Shown piece by piece: positions 9,424 to 21,369 of a stretch of 23,507 bases of DNA. The notes under the pieces are model-generated. The model was given only the letters and a program-made list of their open reading frames with translations. It was not told where the DNA came from and did no database searches. Each line of letters opens with the position of its first letter. The stretch's first letter is position 1. The stretch comes from a virus. Location: positions 1 through 23,507 of IMG/VR virus record IMGVR_UViG_3300032236_001949; one strand, 5' to 3'. The position numbers and the translations under genes were made by a program.

Positions 9424-10439
9424 ATAAGTATAAAAATGTAGCTGATAATCCATTTAACTGGGAAGAAGCAATTCTTAAAATTGAACCGAGCGGTTTTATA
9501 GATGAAACTGATATTTTTTGGAAAGAAGATAAAAATGAAAAAATTTATAAAATTAATTCTTTAAATTTTAGGTCAGACGAATTTGTTGAAAACAGAGATC
9601 TGGTTTTTTCTGGCTGCTCTTATACCTTTGGACAAGGTGTCGTTAATGATGGAATATGGGGAAATATTGTATCAAAAGAATTAAATCTAAAAAGTTATAA
9701 TTTGGGATTACCAGGAAAATCAGTTCAATCTATTGTTAATAATTTATTTAATTATTTTAAAATAATTGATCATCCAAAAATACTATTATGTTTATTTCCA
9801 GAATTTACAAGAATGGACATGTGGTCTGAAAGAGATCATATGGTTTCAAGAAAAAATTTTGAAGAAGCAAAAAGAGAATATAATAAATACACTTTAGTTC
9901 TTCAAGATAGAGAATATGAAAAAATTTCTAAGCAGCCTTACATTGCAGAAAAAATTATACCAATGGAATTACCATTTGCTCTTTCTATTCAATATATTAA
10001 ATTTTTAGAAATGTATTGTAAAGCAAAAGATATTAAATTTTTATGGGGAACTTGGAGTCAAACTGAAAGCTTATTCTTAAAAAGTAACAAAGAAACATTT
10101 TTGTTTAATAATTTTGTTGATTTGGAAAGTTATAAATGGCATCAAAGATATGAAGATAAAAGAAAAATTAGATATCATCAAGAAGGTTTGATTTCAAAAA
10201 ATCATACTGAAGACTATATGTATCATGACAAAGAATGTATAAATGCTACAGATTGTCATCAAGAATTAAAACATATTTATGGAAAAAATTTTGATCTCGC
10301 CATGGATACTGGAGAAAGCGATTATGATTTAAAAAATCATCATGGACATTGCGGTGTACATCAACATATTCATTATGCAGAACTTTTTGTTGAAGCTTTA
10401 AATAATTATGATGAAAGATTTAAGTCAAATGATCAATAA
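9420..10439 (+). CDS. SGNH/GDSL-like hydrolase, copy B
   Basis: A 339-residue paralogue of the preceding gene, overlapping it by 4 bases. The block-I Ser is S67 in SGCSYTFGQG, block II is YNLGLPGKS, and the His-rich end is GHCGVHQHIHYAELF. The two proteins align end to end; identity is highest at residues 49-98, where the DNA is also identical over 35 and 62 bases. The C-terminal region contains an extra stretch (residues about 251-270) and His/Cys residues (YHDKECINATDCHQE) that could bind metal. It probably acts as a pair with copy A, for example as a heterodimer or on two sites of one substrate. Substrate unknown. Confidence 0.72.
   Translation: MNKYKNVADNPFNWEEAILKIEPSGFIDETDIFWKEDKNEKIYKINSLNFRSDEFVENRDLVFSGCSYTFGQGVVNDGIWGNIVSKELNLKSYNLGLPGKSVQSIVNNLFNYFKIIDHPKILLCLFPEFTRMDMWSERDHMVSRKNFEEAKREYNKYTLVLQDREYEKISKQPYIAEKIIPMELPFALSIQYIKFLEMYCKAKDIKFLWGTWSQTESLFLKSNKETFLFNNFVDLESYKWHQRYEDKRKIRYHQEGLISKNHTEDYMYHDKECINATDCHQELKHIYGKNFDLAMDTGESDYDLKNHHGHCGVHQHIHYAELFVEALNNYDERFKSNDQ
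9645..9706 (+). repeat. 62-base identical repeat, copy 2
   Basis: The second copy of the 62-base block shared by the two SGNH genes. It encodes NDGIWGNIVSKELNLKSYNL in both. The direct orientation, 974 bases apart, would allow deletion by recombination to give a single chimeric gene. Confidence 0.9.
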
Positions 10440-11859
10440 AAATATTTTGGGTTATAACGAAACATCTCATGATGCTGCTATGGCATTAATTGATGATGAA
10501 AAAATCTTGTTTGCTGGTCATGCTGAAAGATATAGCAAGAAAAAAAACGATTGGTATAACAATAATGAAATATACCGTGACTTACTTAATTATGGTATTC
10601 CAGATGAGGCTGCTTATTATGAGAAACCCCGCCTAAAAAGATTAAGAATAAAATTGCGTGGTGGGGCAGCTGATTGGAAACCTGCTGACAAAGGAATAAA
10701 AGCAAAAGAATTTAAGCATCACTATTCTCATGCAGCAGCAGGATATTATACAAGCCCATTTGATGATGCTGTAATTGTAGTATTAGATGCTATTGGAGAA
10801 TTTAATACATCAACAGTTTGGACGGGAGTGGGAGATGATATTTCTTTAGTAGAAAAAAGAAACTACCCATTTAGCTTTGGACTATTCTATTCAGCTTTTA
10901 CACAATTAATTGGTCTTATGCCTAATCAAGAAGAGTATATTATGATGGGCATGGCTGCTTATGGAGATCCAATTAAATACTTTAATAAAGTTAATGATTA
11001 TTTTCCGCATATATTTAAGCAAAAATATAATTTTCATAAAGGAATAATTGATTGGGGCGATGTTGATGAAAATGATAAATTTGACATAGCAGCAGCAGTT
11101 CAAAAAGTTTATGAACGAAGGTTATACGATTTTATGTTGGAAGCCAAAAGAAAAACTGGTAAAACCAATCTTGTATTTATGGGTGGGTGTGCATTAAATT
11201 CTTCTGCTAATACTTTGTTATGGGACATATTCGATGATGTTTGGATTATGCCTAATCCAGGAGATGCAGGATCAAGCTTAGGTGCTGCACTTGCTATGCG
11301 TGGTAAACATATAAAATGGGAAGGGCCATACCTTGGTTACGATTTAGGTAATGAATATCCTGTAAAAAAGATTATTAAATCTTTAATTGATAATAAAATT
11401 GCTCCAGTGGCAGCGGGACGTGCAGAGTTTGGACCAAGAGCATTAGGCAATAGAAGCATATTAGCAGATCCTAGAGATCCAAATATTAAAGATAAAGTTA
11501 ATCAAATTAAACAAAGAGAATTATTTAGACCATTTGCTCCAGTTGTTATGGAAGAATATGCACACGAATGGTTTTATATGCCATCAAATGCTACCAGCCC
11601 TTATATGCAATATACCTTTATGTGTTTAAAGCCAGAAATTATTCCATCTGTTGTTCATAAAGATGGAACTTCAAGAGTTCAAACAGTTAATGCTGAACAA
11701 CATCCAGGACTTTATGCTGTATTATCTGAATGGTATAAATTAACTGGTGTTCCAATATTGTTAAATACTAGTTTAAACATAAAGGGTCAACCACTTTTAA
11801 ATGATTGGAAAGACATTGAAGAATGGAATAAATTTTATAATAATACAATAATCACTTGA
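10429..11859 (+). CDS. Carbamoyltransferase (NodU/CmcH/TobZ family)
   Basis: A 476-residue O-carbamoyltransferase. The Kae1-like N-terminal domain shows NETSHDAAMAL (H14), AERYSKKK (E33), HHYSHAAAGYYTSPF (H97/H98/H101) and a conserved Asp (VVLDAIGEF). The C-terminal domain has EFGPRALGNRSIL at 333-345 and LLNTSLNIKGQPL. The family uses carbamoyl phosphate and ATP to carbamoylate hydroxyls of sugars, antibiotics or, in some phages, hydroxymethylcytosine. ATG 10429 is preferred (11-base overlap, and the protein then starts at the family's usual MxxxILG); ATG 10408 is the alternative. The final segment after GQPLLND is unlike the usual family end and short, but the catalytic parts are present. 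Confidence 0.93.
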   Translation: MINKNILGYNETSHDAAMALIDDEKILFAGHAERYSKKKNDWYNNNEIYRDLLNYGIPDEAAYYEKPRLKRLRIKLRGGAADWKPADKGIKAKEFKHHYSHAAAGYYTSPFDDAVIVVLDAIGEFNTSTVWTGVGDDISLVEKRNYPFSFGLFYSAFTQLIGLMPNQEEYIMMGMAAYGDPIKYFNKVNDYFPHIFKQKYNFHKGIIDWGDVDENDKFDIAAAVQKVYERRLYDFMLEAKRKTGKTNLVFMGGCALNSSANTLLWDIFDDVWIMPNPGDAGSSLGAALAMRGKHIKWEGPYLGYDLGNEYPVKKIIKSLIDNKIAPVAAGRAEFGPRALGNRSILADPRDPNIKDKVNQIKQRELFRPFAPVVMEEYAHEWFYMPSNATSPYMQYTFMCLKPEIIPSVVHKDGTSRVQTVNAEQHPGLYAVLSEWYKLTGVPILLNTSLNIKGQPLLNDWKDIEEWNKFYNNTIIT

Positions 11860-11885
11860 CACATTAGCCTTTAATAGGGTATACT
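11856..11885 (+). promoter_or_regulatory. Promoter of the tRNA cluster
   Basis: TTGACA at 11856-11861 overlaps the carbamoyltransferase stop codon. An 18-base spacer leads to TATACT at 11880-11885. The expected +1, about 11892, is some 12 bases upstream of tRNA-Asn. It is the only clear promoter seen before the tRNA array. Confidence 0.82.
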
Positions 11886-11903
11886 TTGAAACAACAAAGA
11901 AAA

Positions 11904-11976
11904 TGGGGTGTAGCTCAGACGGCAGAGCGTTCGACTGTTAATCGAAATGTCACAGGTTCGATCCCTGTCACCCCAG
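11904..11976 (+). tRNA. tRNA-Asn (GTT)
   Basis: Acceptor TGGGGTG pairs with CACCCCA. The anticodon stem TTCGA/TCGAA holds loop CTGTTAA, anticodon GTT. The T-arm is ACAGG-TTCGATC-CCTGT. The discriminator is G and CCA is not encoded. It is separated from the main array by the small zinc-protein gene at 12012. Confidence 0.96.
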
Positions 11977-14543: not shown

Positions 14544-15151
14544 TGCCATATAGCATTAGACATGAAGGAAATAAATACGAGGTAGTTGTAACTGCAACTG
14601 GGAGAGTAGTAGGTACTCATCCAAATAAAGCACAAGCCCAAGCACAATTGGGTGCTCTTTATACAAATGTCCCAGATGTTAAAAAAGCTCAAGGTCCTTG
14701 TTGGGATGGTTATGAATATGCTGGAACAAAAGAACAAGATGGAAAAACAGTACCAAATTGTATTCCCGTCAAAAAAGAATCAGCTGGTGCTGGAAGAATT
14801 TCTGGTGGCGTAGGATTTAAATTAGAATATAATGTTCCAGATTGTCAAGGTGGTTATGCTGTTACAAAAGCGGGAACTGGTCAAGTAATTGGTTGTTATA
14901 CTACTAAAGAGCATGCAGAAGAAGCAATGAAAACAATTGCAGTGAACGAACCAGTAGTAAAAAATGATCAAGGAAATGAAGAAGGAATAGGTTCTTTTAA
15001 TTTTTGGAATGGTTCATTTGTACCAGTAATTGGTTCAGAAATGCAAGATATGAGATATAATTCAACTTATAATACTCCACCACAGAAAGATGGACAACCA
15101 TCAGCGGGGTACGGAAACAGATCAGATAAAAACGGTAGATCTAATTCTTAA
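14543..15151 (+). CDS. Structural-region protein with two repeat modules
   Basis: A 202-residue protein. Two similar modules, YEVVVTATGRVVGTHPNKAQ (residues 12-31) and YAVTKAGTGQVIGCYTTKEH (105-124), look like small alpha/beta units. Between them lies PCWDGYEYAGTKEQDGKTV (52-70) with C53/C73, a motif I recall from the C-terminal tails of phage prohead proteases and portal-adjacent proteins. The C-terminus is Asn/Gly-rich and disordered. It shares one base with the fibre gene, so it is probably a virion or virion-assembly protein; a precise role is not known. Confidence 0.75.
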   Translation: MPYSIRHEGNKYEVVVTATGRVVGTHPNKAQAQAQLGALYTNVPDVKKAQGPCWDGYEYAGTKEQDGKTVPNCIPVKKESAGAGRISGGVGFKLEYNVPDCQGGYAVTKAGTGQVIGCYTTKEHAEEAMKTIAVNEPVVKNDQGNEEGIGSFNFWNGSFVPVIGSEMQDMRYNSTYNTPPQKDGQPSAGYGNRSDKNGRSNS

Positions 15152-15156
15152 TCTGA

Positions 15157-15162
15157 TATAAT
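15157..15162 (+). promoter_or_regulatory. -10 box of the structured leader transcript
   Basis: TATAAT at 15157-15162, directly after the stop at 15151. No convincing -35 is seen. The predicted +1 at about 15169 would start the RNA at the 5' edge of the folded leader described next. Confidence 0.55.
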
Positions 15163-15166
15163 ATTT

Positions 15167-15280
15167 ATCTGCACCCTTTCATCGGGGAGTCGCAGATTGT
15201 CGTCGGGAGAAAGCGACATTAAATAAATGCATAGTCCTGAGCATGACTGTAAAAAACTGCTCATCTAACAAAGGATGATT
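15167..15280 (+). promoter_or_regulatory. Structured 5' leader with H-type pseudoknot (riboswitch-like)
   Basis: The leader folds into three elements. Hairpin A pairs ATCTGC (15167-15172) with GCAGAT (15192-15197). Hairpin B pairs TGTCG (15198-15202) with CGACA (15214-15218). A classical H-type pseudoknot follows: stem 1 ATAGTC/GACTGT (15231-15236 with 15245-15250, one G-U), stem 2 TGAGCA/TGCTCA (15238-15243 with 15258-15263), and an A-rich crossing loop AAAAAAC (15251-15257). The pseudoknot ends 7 bases before the Shine-Dalgarno AAGGA (15271-15275) of the 42-codon gene. This geometry is that of translational riboswitches such as preQ1-I or SAM-II, but the sequence matches none I know. Confidence 0.6.
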
Positions 15281-15409
15281 ATGCCAAGCAATACAGAAAA
15301 AATTAAAGCAGCTTTAGCAATTAGACAAAAAAATCATAAAGGTCCAGGCGGTAAGCTTCCAGGATCTATGAATAAAAAGAAAACTGGTTACGCTAAACCA
15401 TCCAAATAA
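15281..15409 (+). CDS. 42-aa basic, Gly/Lys-rich protein
   Basis: ATG 15281 to TAA 15407-15409, behind AAGGA at 15271-15275. The peptide begins MPSNTEKIKAALAIRQKNH and continues into a basic Gly-Pro-Lys tail (GPGGKLPGSMNKKK). It resembles small basic nucleic-acid or virion-associated proteins but no family is recognised. Its interest lies in the elaborate leader in front of it, which implies its synthesis is controlled. A -10 box for the next gene begins 3 bases after its stop. Confidence 0.72.
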   Translation: MPSNTEKIKAALAIRQKNHKGPGGKLPGSMNKKKTGYAKPSK

Positions 15410-15424: not shown

Positions 15425-15676
15425 ATGTGGAACAAGATCTCAACATACTTTAAAAGATATCCAGCACGAGTGTCTGGGTATACATCAGCATTAATTTTGT
15501 GGGGACACAAATATTTTTCTGGTAAGTTGATGGATCTATTAATTCCATCAATCATGTTTATGATTGGTATGGGAGAAATGGCACAAAGAGCAGAAAATAA
15601 AAAAACTATAAAAGCTTTATATGTAGAAAATGATCCAAACAGATCAGATGAAGATATAATTAAGGATATAAAATGA
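15425..15676 (+). CDS. Small membrane protein, holin candidate
   Basis: An 83-residue protein with a basic N-terminus, two short hydrophobic stretches (YTSALILWGHKYF at about residues 19-31 and LLIPSIMFMIGMG at 38-50) and the charged tail EMAQRAENKKTIKAL. I recall the arrangement of a membrane hairpin followed by G-E-x-A-QR-x-E-x-KKT from small actinophage membrane proteins near lysis genes, so holin is a reasonable guess. No endolysin is visible beside it. It overlaps the Dps-like gene by 4 bases. Confidence 0.7.
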   Translation: MWNKISTYFKRYPARVSGYTSALILWGHKYFSGKLMDLLIPSIMFMIGMGEMAQRAENKKTIKALYVENDPNRSDEDIIKDIK

Positions 15677-16110
15677 ATGAATTAGCACAAATGCTTGTTA
15701 AACTACAATCAATGGTAGTTAAAATGTATGCACAAACACACGGGTATCATTGGAATATTGAGGGATCTGGTTTTCCACAATATCATCAAAAATTATTAGA
15801 TATCTATGAGGATGTTTTTGATTCTATTGATGATTATTCTGAAAATCTACGTAGGCTTGGTTATAAAGCACCATTTGGTGTTAAGTCATGGAATGAAAAT
15901 AGTGAATTAGAAGTAAATGATTCTCTTGATCTTGATGCAAAACAAATGTTTCAAGAATTAGTTACAACAAATACTGTTGTTCTTGCAATGTTAAAGAGAA
16001 CATTTGACAAATCTGCAGAACTTGATGAACAAGGACTTTGTAATTTTCTTGCAGAAAGACTTGATAAACATAAATTCTGGCAATGGCAGTTGACAGCAAC
16101 ACTTAAATAG
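15673..16110 (+). CDS. Dps-like ferritin (DNA protection during starvation)
   Basis: A 145-residue four-helix ferritin-like protein. The Dps ferroxidase ligands are visible: H26 (YHWNIEG), H38 (QYHQK), then D53 and E57 (SIDDYSENLRRLG), in the spacing seen in Dps dodecamers. Dps oxidises and stores iron, removes H2O2 and shields DNA. The N-terminal DNA-binding tail of E. coli Dps is absent. It follows a holin-like gene in a 4-base overlap. Together with the peroxidase and thioredoxin it forms a phage-borne oxidative-stress set. A terminator follows 28 bases after the stop. Confidence 0.9.
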   Translation: MNELAQMLVKLQSMVVKMYAQTHGYHWNIEGSGFPQYHQKLLDIYEDVFDSIDDYSENLRRLGYKAPFGVKSWNENSELEVNDSLDLDAKQMFQELVTTNTVVLAMLKRTFDKSAELDEQGLCNFLAERLDKHKFWQWQLTATLK

Positions 16111-16378: not shown

Positions 16379-17266
16379 ATGAAAAAAACTATTACTGCAA
16401 TTGGTGTTATTCTTGTTGTTATTTATTTAATTTTAGTTGGATTTAATGCTATTCCAGCACACGCTGCTTCAACAGGTTCAAATATTGCAATCATTGATAC
16501 TGGGTATGATCCTTCAGTTGCATCTTTTAAAGATAAAGTGATTTATGAAAAATGTATTAATTGGCTTGAAGCAACTTGTCCAAATGGAAAACTTTCAATG
16601 GATGGTGCGGGATCAGCACAATTAACATCAAAGCAACTTGGAACTGGAACTGCAATGCATGGAACAGAAATGATGCTTAATTCAATTGCTACAAATTCAA
16701 ATACTAAATTTGTTTTTATTCGTGCTTTTTCTATCAATAAAGCAGTAATTGCACCACTTGATACAGATATTGTAAATATTTTAAATTGGATTTATGCAAA
16801 TAAAGATACATACAACATTGGTGCTGTTACTATGAGTTATGGAAGACCTGTTACTTCAACAACCTGTCCCAATTCAACAACATTGACAAATGCTGTTAAT
16901 CAACTTAAATCTGTTAATATTCCAGTAATTGCTGCAGCAGGAAATAACTATGATTATTCACATATTGATTTTCCATCTTGCAATACAGGTGTTATTTCAG
17001 TTGGATCATCTGTAAATGGAATTCATCAACTTTACAGCAACTACTCTTCATTCATTAGTTTTGATGCTTTGGGTCAAATTGGATCAACAAATGGAACATC
17101 AACTGCAACACAAGTATTTGGTGCGGGATGGGTAGCAATTCATCAAGCAAAACCATCACTATCTTATTCTCAAATCTATTCATTAATACAGCAAACGGCA
17201 TCTATCTCTACAAACCAATATGTTAAATCAGTACCTACTTTAAATATTGCAGCAGCTTTAAAGTAG
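16379..17266 (+). CDS. Secreted subtilisin-like serine protease (S8)
   Basis: A 295-residue subtilase. The N-terminus is a clear signal peptide (KK, hydrophobic residues 9-24, cleavage near AHA-AS at 29-30). The S8 catalytic triad is D40 (IAIIDTGYD), H94 (AMHGTEM) and S241 (NGTSTAT), with oxyanion N189 (VIAAAGNN). There is no long propeptide, so the mature enzyme begins almost at the catalytic Asp. Four Cys (C59, C67, C163, C201) could form disulfides outside the cell. It has its own promoter. A Sec-exported protease is rare in tailed phages; it might modify the host surface, aid lysis or release, or act on other host cells' proteins. Shape and motifs are convincing; the role is unknown. Confidence 0.93.
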   Translation: MKKTITAIGVILVVIYLILVGFNAIPAHAASTGSNIAIIDTGYDPSVASFKDKVIYEKCINWLEATCPNGKLSMDGAGSAQLTSKQLGTGTAMHGTEMMLNSIATNSNTKFVFIRAFSINKAVIAPLDTDIVNILNWIYANKDTYNIGAVTMSYGRPVTSTTCPNSTTLTNAVNQLKSVNIPVIAAAGNNYDYSHIDFPSCNTGVISVGSSVNGIHQLYSNYSSFISFDALGQIGSTNGTSTATQVFGAGWVAIHQAKPSLSYSQIYSLIQQTASISTNQYVKSVPTLNIAAALK

Positions 17267-18999: not shown

Positions 19000-19308
19000 A
19001 TGACAAATATTAAACCGCTTGGCAGTTTAATTTTAATCAAAGTAGAAGAAGAAAAAGATAAGACTACAAAATCAGGTTTAGTTATTGCTGCTACAGTTAT
19101 TGATTCAGCATTAAAAAGAGCTAAAGTAGTTGCAGTAGGTCCAGGTGATTACCATAGTAATGGTGACCTACATTCAATACCGCTAAATATTGGTGATACA
19201 GTTATTTATTCACCAAATCACGTTACAGAAATTGAAGATGAAAGTGGAGAAAAGCTTCACTTTATTAACTGGAGACAACTCTTCGGAATGGAACAAAACA
19301 ATGCCTAA
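19000..19308 (+). CDS. groES: GroES-family co-chaperonin
   Basis: A 102-residue Cpn10. The protein opens with IKPLGSLILIKVEEEKD. Residues 16-33 form the mobile loop that docks on GroEL (KTTKSGLVIAA), followed by AKVVAVGPGDY and IGDTVIYSPNHVTEI. It would cap the host GroEL and adapt folding to phage proteins, as gp31 does for T4, though it is closer in sequence to bacterial GroES. No groEL is present in the window. First gene of the operon; it overlaps the next by 8 bases. Confidence 0.94.
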   Translation: MTNIKPLGSLILIKVEEEKDKTTKSGLVIAATVIDSALKRAKVVAVGPGDYHSNGDLHSIPLNIGDTVIYSPNHVTEIEDESGEKLHFINWRQLFGMEQNNA

Positions 19309-20523: not shown

Positions 20524-20812
20524 AGTAACTGATGATGTAAATGAATTTAAACAAGAAGATTCTTGTGTAGTTTATTTTACTGCTGCATGGTGTGGTCCAT
20601 GTAAGGCATTAAAGCCACAATATGGACGGGCTGCAGTAATGGATCCTGAAACTAACTATTATATGCTTGATGTTGACAAAGTTGACCCTAATGCGATACA
20701 ATATTATGGTATTCAAAGCATCCCGCAAGTTTTTGTTATGGAAAAAGGCGAGATCAAAAAGTCTATACAATCAAGAACAGCAGAATCTATTCTAGAGGAA
20801 TTAGGTAAATGA
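20516..20812 (+). CDS. Thioredoxin
   Basis: A 98-residue thioredoxin with the active site W25-C26-G-P-C29-K and the cis-proline P70 (GIQSIPQVFVM). The fold is complete with strands VVYFTAAW and YYMLDVD. The start is TTG 20516, with Shine-Dalgarno AGGAG near 20502; the first in-frame ATG lies too far inside the fold to be the start. It would reduce disulfides, ribonucleotide reductase or the phage's own Cys-type peroxidase at 1943. It overlaps the Ntn hydrolase gene by 4 bases. Confidence 0.94.
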   Translation: MLKVTDDVNEFKQEDSCVVYFTAAWCGPCKALKPQYGRAAVMDPETNYYMLDVDKVDPNAIQYYGIQSIPQVFVMEKGEIKKSIQSRTAESILEELGK

Positions 20813-21369
20813 CAACAATCGTTGCAGTAGTAAAAAATGGTAATGTAACTATGGGTGCAGACTCTCAAGTTACAGATGATTCAAGACCTAATATGCATGC
20901 TAGAATGGAAAAGATTACAAAAAATAATGGTTGGCTAATTGCAGGTAGTGGTGATTCAACACCATGCGATATTTTTCAACACATATTTATTCCTCCAGTT
21001 CCAAATTCAAATGAAAGAAAAGATCTTTACAAATTTATGATTACTAAATTTGTTCCAGCAATGCGTGAGGCATTAGAAGAAAATGGTTGGAAAGAAGACG
21101 ATAAAGATCCATCAAGTGGATTTTCTATGCTCTTTGCATTTGATGGAGAAGTTTTTGATATAGGTAGTGACTTTAGTGTATTGCTGAATAGCGACGGCAT
21201 ATATGGAGTTGGTAATGGTTCTAAAATCGCTATTGGTGCGTTGTACGCTGGGGCTTCTGTAGAAAAAGCTCTGGAAATTGCTGCTATCAACGATATTTAT
21301 ACATCTGGTCCTTTTCAGATTGTAAGGCAACAAAAGGTTGGCGATAAAAAGCTTAAAAAGCCTGAGTAA
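20809..21369 (+). CDS. HslV / proteasome-beta-like Ntn hydrolase
   Basis: A 186-residue Ntn-fold protein closest to HslV. It begins MTTIVAVVKNGNVTMGADSQ; the nucleophile would be Thr2 after Met removal, with D18 (GADSQ) and K35 (MEKITKN) as partners, then WLIAGSGDSTPCDI. HslV normally assembles with the HslU ATPase into a protease; no HslU is seen here. Proteasome-like peptidases of this kind recur in actinophages. It may degrade host proteins or act as a regulated amidase. It is the last gene of the operon; 125 bases of non-coding DNA with the next promoter follow. Confidence 0.9.
   Translation: MTTIVAVVKNGNVTMGADSQVTDDSRPNMHARMEKITKNNGWLIAGSGDSTPCDIFQHIFIPPVPNSNERKDLYKFMITKFVPAMREALEENGWKEDDKDPSSGFSMLFAFDGEVFDIGSDFSVLLNSDGIYGVGNGSKIAIGALYAGASVEKALEIAAINDIYTSGPFQIVRQQKVGDKKLKKPE

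Follow-up and report, generated by a model that had tools for sequence, protein, structure and literature searches.

The 42-codon gene of a viral genome fragment is preceded by a structured leader RNA, and this raises the question of whether the RNA controls the gene that follows or belongs to what lies before it. The window analysed here is the whole 23,507-nucleotide stretch of IMG/VR record IMGVR_UViG_3300032236_001949; its source is probably an actinobacterial phage from fresh water, host and habitat being judged by a WhiB gene detected in a Pfam/PHROG scan and by the relatives. The leader and its gene occupy 15157-15409, with all features on the plus strand. A predicted extended -10 element, TATAAT (TGATATAAT), lies at 15157-15162, directly 3' of a 202-amino-acid gene that stops at 15149-15151 (TAA), and is followed by a modular RNA of approximately 95 nt. 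Module A (15167-15197) is a 5' hairpin whose pairing is kept across 32 aligned relatives, with an outer stem AUCUGC/GCAGAU, an internal loop, an inner stem CCCU/GGGG and the loop UUCAUC. Module B (15198-15229) consists of a hairpin (15198-15218) with the stem UGUCG/CGACA and a purine-rich loop, plus a UAAAUAA linker, and Module C (15231-15263), at the 3' end, is an H-type pseudoknot supported by covariation of both stems and by fixed loop cytosines. In Module C, S1 (15231-15236/15245-15250, AUAGUC/GACUGU, with one G-U; core 15233-15236/15245-15248) and S2 (15238-15243/15258-15263, UGAGCA/UGCUCA) are joined by loops of 1, 1 and 7 nt, namely L1 (C15237), L2 (U15244) and L3 (15251-15257, AAAAAAC). 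The sequence has exactly the layout described in the first-pass annotation, two hairpins and then an H-type pseudoknot, including the 7 bases (15264-15270) between the pseudoknot and AAGGA. The tail (15264-15272) runs into a Shine-Dalgarno sequence (SD, AAAGGA, 15270-15275), and the gene for a basic peptide of 42 amino acids (MPSNTEKIKAALAIRQKNHKGPGGKLPGSMNKKKTGYAKPSK) occupies 15281-15409. The start at 15281 is common to homologues in over 20 related contigs, while the peptide had no Pfam or PHROG match and none by tblastn.

The pseudoknot is invisible in the nested minimum-free-energy fold of the leader, the stability of which is ordinary (z = -0.87) and uninformative, and its reality was judged by comparison. 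Analysis of 512 elements showed Watson-Crick pairing at S1 pairs 2, 3 and 4 in 97, 95 and 68% of them, against 41, 36 and 29% expected, while pairs 5 and 6 form no more often than by chance. The S1 sequence varies among related contigs with its pairing kept (GGGGC/GCCCC, AAGGAC/GUCCUU, AUAGUC/GACUGU), and at least three S1 pairs, fixed closing pair included, were found in 188 of 189 distinct viral copies. Both of the 6-pair stems proposed earlier do pair in the window; the S1 of the family, however, is a 4-bp stem, of which the six pairs seen here are a local extension. For S2, patterns admitting every uncompensated combination were used, and the change at pair 3 was compensated in 106/106 copies, all G-C, and that at pair 4 in 99 of 101 (81 A-U, 9 U-A, 9 C-G), these being counts of related sequences and not of independent events; the two copies with pair 4 unpaired both lacked S1. 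In relaxed scans with S1 fixed as AGTC, L1 was C in at least 120 stretches and A, G or T in none, and no base other than C closed L3, the patterns for Module C having held the S2 ends and the loops fixed unless deliberately relaxed.

Compensatory change in both stems, by which an H-type pseudoknot is recognized, was therefore present at S1 pairs 2-4 and S2 pairs 3-4. Module C is thus established as a real RNA structure by comparative evidence; its mechanism we infer. Across hundreds of relatives both stems were upheld, and the loss of stem 2 from homologous leaders, which the first-pass annotation had named as grounds for refutation, was not seen. A chance or low-complexity origin was rejected on the shuffle expectation (one occurrence of the pattern in the window, 0.01 expected) and on the test of compensated against uncompensated changes. 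A DNA operator palindrome (TGAGCA..TGCTCA) was rejected as well, because S1, which covaries, falls outside it. By analogy with plant-virus frameshift pseudoknots, the invariant L1 cytosine and the AAAC would suit a triple-stabilised, mechanically strong knot.

Pattern searches indicated that Module C is shared by phages across many bacterial phyla and is not specific to the window leader. At least hundreds of viral contigs contain it, all counts being lower bounds. A pattern with S2 and the loops fixed and S1 free except for the closing C-G matched at least 120 times in viral contigs, and a stricter one matched 79 stretches in contigs of bacterial and archaeal genomes from many phyla, where approximately 3 were estimated by chance. 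Since at least 120 stretches carried AGTC, which accounts for about 9% of S1 sequences (13/146), copies of the window's S2 type alone probably exceed a thousand by extrapolation. Large phage records held one to a few copies each, with none for the reversed-pattern control, and Module C therefore does not mark gene ends in general. It is rare for a structured RNA to be shared among phages of many bacterial phyla, and this one is small, with invariant loop bases and strong covariation in two stems; as it occurs in the cultured phages Labelle, Molivia, S-EIV1, ParMal1 and NMeng1, its function is testable. One contig (L086, about 11870-11953) carries tandem Module C pseudoknots approximately 60 nt apart, the first having TGAGTA in S2.

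The genomic context, based on simple ORF calls in the contigs, revealed that Module C usually lies 3' of a same-strand stop codon. The distance from the stop to the CC peaks at 8-9 nt, so that S1 starts approximately 5 nt past the stop, and those apparent divergent cases that were inspected proved to be short spurious ORFs on the opposite strand. The commonest genes 5' of Module C (sample n = 108) were phrog_1221 (DUF932), Hsp20, single-strand DNA-binding proteins and head proteins, of which the last three are likely to be high-demand products; downstream genes belonged to more scattered families. What follows Module C varies, being an SD and the next gene, a convergent gene, a promoter, a tRNA, a hammerhead ribozyme or a DUF2800 RNA. 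Among 511 elements, 36 of the 41 tRNAs lying within 300 nt downstream began within 20 nt of Module C, and in a 147-element subset about 0.2 tRNAs would be expected within 40 nt. The adjacent tRNAs are of at least 11 species, with 22 tRNA-Asp, many of them at homologous sites. The order in the annotated phage Molivia is stop codon, knot and tRNA-Gly, with the same arrangement of knot and then tRNA in NMeng1; in Labelle the knot again comes after a stop codon, with the tRNA about 180 nt further downstream. In another contig (L414, 1484-1658) a tRNA is placed between two Module C knots, the second past a short spacer.

Hammerhead-like cores were found in phage-like regions directly 3' of Module C in L293 (7541-7595 region), L581 (2366-2460) and L613, the first matching the Rfam model and the other two scoring below the gathering threshold; on the standard hammerhead layout, the predicted cut would fall approximately 5 nt past Module C in L293 and 18 nt past it in L581 and L613. 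The DUF2800 RNA (RF02960) begins at the base after Module C in L304 (5407-5592), L311 (2824-3006) and L338 (1691-1874). Most of S1 is lost in L304, and next to other DUF2800 RNAs Module C is degenerate or absent. DUF2800 RNA, a phage or prophage RNA, is a separate family whose model starts past the knot, and in some phages RF02960 may lack a partner element on its 5' side.

These neighbours bear on the first-pass proposal of a riboswitch-like leader, in which the knot hides the ribosome site. A riboswitch or an autoregulatory operator governing translation of the 42-codon gene would fit the position of Module C just 5' of the SD in the window, and the H-type fold with its A-rich loop resembles in outline preQ1-I, SAM-II and the T4 gene 32 operator. 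However, the same knot also lies 3' of the stops of unrelated genes and beside convergent genes, tRNAs and ribozymes; the SD is outside the fold, and the knot recurs where no ribosome site follows. Furthermore, nine related contigs have TATAAT and a simple GC-rich hairpin ahead of the 42-amino-acid gene, in place of the three modules. No match to the preQ1, SAM-II, Downstream-peptide or glnA models was obtained with cmscan, either in the window at gathering threshold or in the leader at E up to 10. A riboswitch or gene-specific operator is disfavoured because the knot is tied to the upstream and not the downstream sequence, because it lies against RNAs that are released from precursors by cleavage, and because it ends a small RNA with no ORF just before it; it is accordingly considered very improbable. 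As to the protein-bound operator offered in the same annotation, a protein site of a general kind is conceivable and is weighed below, and an operator of the 42-codon gene found no support. A stop-codon readthrough signal was not favoured either, given that the spacing is not frame-locked, that TAA is the usual stop and that the three modules occur together with no ORF just before Module C.

Module C was also compared with known systems. PreQ1-I and SAM-II occur in 5' leaders as compact H-type pseudoknots whose crossing loop is rich in A. Module C shares this fold and loop and differs in its 1-nt L1, its 6-bp S2 and its lack of a tie to a ribosome site or a metabolic gene; a preQ1-I aptamer overlaps or controls the ribosome site, whereas the SD here is 7 nt past the knot. 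The Downstream-peptide and glnA RNAs of cyanobacteria and cyanophages resemble the window in that a structured leader precedes a very small gene of an aquatic phage, but the window leader differs in anatomy and has no Rfam match, in line with the earlier remark that its sequence is unlike these riboswitches. In T4 and T2, the gene 32 leader pseudoknot is located 5' of the gene and serves as the nucleation point for the binding of gp32 across the ribosome site (PMC3014915). Like it, Module C is a phage H-type pseudoknot with coaxial stems, and some of its neighbours are single-strand DNA-binding genes; an operator of that type would occupy the 5' leader of such a gene, whereas the neighbour survey placed Module C 3' of these and many other genes, across phyla.

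The three modules were then considered as a unit in the relatives of the window, defined as IMG/VR contigs found via the upstream 202-amino-acid protein. Related contigs carried A+B+C, B+C, A+C or C alone. Module A was detected in at least 119 stretches of IMG/VR, and Module C was present after 75 of 75 distinct A elements (70 by pattern and 5 on inspection). In 67 of these 75, mostly in related contigs and including the window, TATAAT ended exactly 6 nt before CTGCA, and this fixed spacing places the predicted transcription start at the base of hairpin A. In 32 aligned sequences, changes on both sides of the Module A helices left 94% (helix 1) and 100% (helix 2) of cells paired, with a covariation score of 0.181 compared to 0.097 when shuffled and at most 0.062 when slid. 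MAFFT misaligned S2 in rows with a short loop, and S2 was therefore judged separately. In Module B both bases of the outermost pair had changed in 5 of the 32 sequences and the inner four pairs were nearly invariant; in other phages this module is absent, replaced by a CGGG..CCCG hairpin, or found alongside such a hairpin. A BLAST search of the leader against cultured phages gave only chance-level matches to the three modules.

Further inspection of the relatives showed another TATAAT-like sequence 3' of Module C in four contigs and an opposite-strand gene in four others, and in several the whole A-B-C unit lies upstream of a different gene, another promoter or a convergent gene. In many relatives the gene upstream of the unit appears to be hsp20, inferred from conserved C-terminal residues and phrog_432; the window's upstream gene differs. 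The unit also occurs with no ORF just before Module C and yet is ended by it, which argues that the role of the knot is not tied to ribosomes. We read A-B-C as a small RNA, approximately 95 nt long, that is closed at its 5' end and knotted at its 3' end and that, in the window, doubles as the leader of the 42-codon gene. A type III antitoxin (ToxI-like tandem pseudoknots beside a toxN-like gene) found no support, as the window copy is single and the nearest genes scanned had no such match.

Taken from the observed structure, conservation, position and neighbours of Module C, our best explanation, held at a probability of roughly 0.4, is that of a compact RNA knot that marks a 3' boundary and protects the 3' end. 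Its own promoter would transcribe A-B-C, with hairpin A closing the 5' end and pseudoknot C the 3' end. Loop-stabilised and placed just past a coding region or small RNA, Module C would block 3'-to-5' exonucleases once the transcript had been cut or ended just downstream, the cut being made by RNase P at a tRNA, by a self-cleaving ribozyme or by an endonuclease acting within the tail, which is poor in G. A stable 3' end would then be left on the upstream RNA, and the downstream gene or RNA would be set free; in the window, the knot would mark the end of A-B-C, and read-through would yield the 42-codon mRNA. The tie to upstream sequence, the abutting RNAs that are cut and the ending of a small RNA fit such an element, protecting ends after nearby cleavage. 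Also speaking for it are the position after stop codons, the free downstream context, the natural cut sites, the G-poor tail and the high-demand upstream genes. Against it, each phage genome carries few copies, most co-directional copies have no known processing site downstream, and the near-invariant S2 ends and loops could equally be explained by protein recognition.

An insulating role, in which the knot stops ribosomes from unfolding the following RNA or keeps the next ribosome site independent, would agree with the proximity to stop codons and with structured RNAs lying flush against it, but Module C also ends A-B-C and follows hairpins that have no translated gene just upstream; this role is therefore regarded as improbable.

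Two serious rivals to the 3'-boundary reading are pausing and recognition by a conserved protein. Across 511 elements, the tail contains 3-9% G at positions 1-7, compared to about 20-25% beyond, and about 40% U over the first 8-9 nt, so that its composition suggests a stretch that lacks structure and is open to cutting or easily melted. A knot formed during transcription and a weak 9-nt hybrid could make the polymerase pause or partly terminate at gene ends: the G-poor, U-rich tail of 8-9 nt has the length of an RNA-DNA hybrid, and Module C sits at gene ends, ahead of next promoters and convergent genes. Most copies, however, have no U-run, only about 22% (about a fifth) having 6 or more T in 9, and sites facing convergent genes are no T-richer. 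A tail that is G-poor but rarely a U-run is not that of a standard terminator, and the intrinsic terminator in its usual form, a GC-rich hairpin with a U-run, was rejected on these figures. In addition, an SD lies within 60 nt of many copies, leaving no space for a new promoter, and read-through would therefore be needed. A pause or attenuation signal is unlikely on this balance.

The other rival is a site for an RNA-binding protein, bacterial or phage-encoded and widely conserved, acting on many phage transcripts. The fixed S2 ends, L1 cytosine and last L3 cytosine beside a variable S1 are what a recognition element would show, but occurrence across many bacterial phyla would demand a near-universal protein, and no candidate was found; we consider this possibility doubtful, to a similar degree as pausing.

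Intercistronic hairpins of the REP type lie just 3' of stop codons and would protect the upstream mRNA. Module C may be likened to these 3' stabilisers, being intercistronic and just past stops, but it differs in being a pseudoknot with fixed loop bases, spread over many phyla and often flush with tRNAs or ribozymes. Rfam 15 contains no family for Module A, B or C, as examined in the window, in the leader at E up to 10 and at 26 other loci; the Rfam search suggested at first pass thus gave no unrelated known structure, and the class is absent from that database. No description of the motif was found in literature searches whose coverage of RNA-motif papers was incomplete, and an earlier description is possible. 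In the accessible part of the first hammerhead survey, prophage hammerheads flank genes and a C-type knot is not mentioned (PMC3088659). Module C is an RNA family absent from Rfam, built on a known fold and probably serving a familiar purpose by unusual means. More tentatively, and at somewhat less than an even chance, it would be a general RNA-end knot of tailed phages, exonuclease-resistant and missing from Rfam, acting with RNase P, ribozymes and endonucleases that cut transcripts into stable units, with A-B-C as a stand-alone small RNA built around it. If Module C does guard RNA ends, it would explain how stability is set gene by gene within long phage transcripts and why tRNAs and self-cleaving ribozymes are placed where they are, and it could serve in bacteria as a short and portable means of stabilising RNA.

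Additional observations concerned the surroundings of Module C and of the leader. In the Ignavibacteria Ch128a, copies lie inside apparent CRISPR arrays (L356 at 1776, 3037 and 5923; L367 at 6754), at least four in one genome and in identical orientation; apparent arrays with Module C were also seen in three further contigs, with repeats such as GTCTCAATTCCACTATGGTTCAATTCAAAT, which suggests repeated spacer capture from the motif. A conserved reading, M-x-R-F-x-I/M-P-R-x-A-H-C-x-x-G-C, precedes Module C in eight contigs from very different bacteria, and a TGA within CCTGAGCA is a possible stop codon there. Elsewhere in the window, host-type genes encode a Dps-like ferritin (15673-16107), a Nol-like carbamoyltransferase (10408-11856) and an HslV-family peptidase (20809-21366), and translations read by eye resemble a glutathione peroxidase (1943-2407), a GroES-like co-chaperonin (19000-19308) and a subtilisin-like protease (16379-17266).
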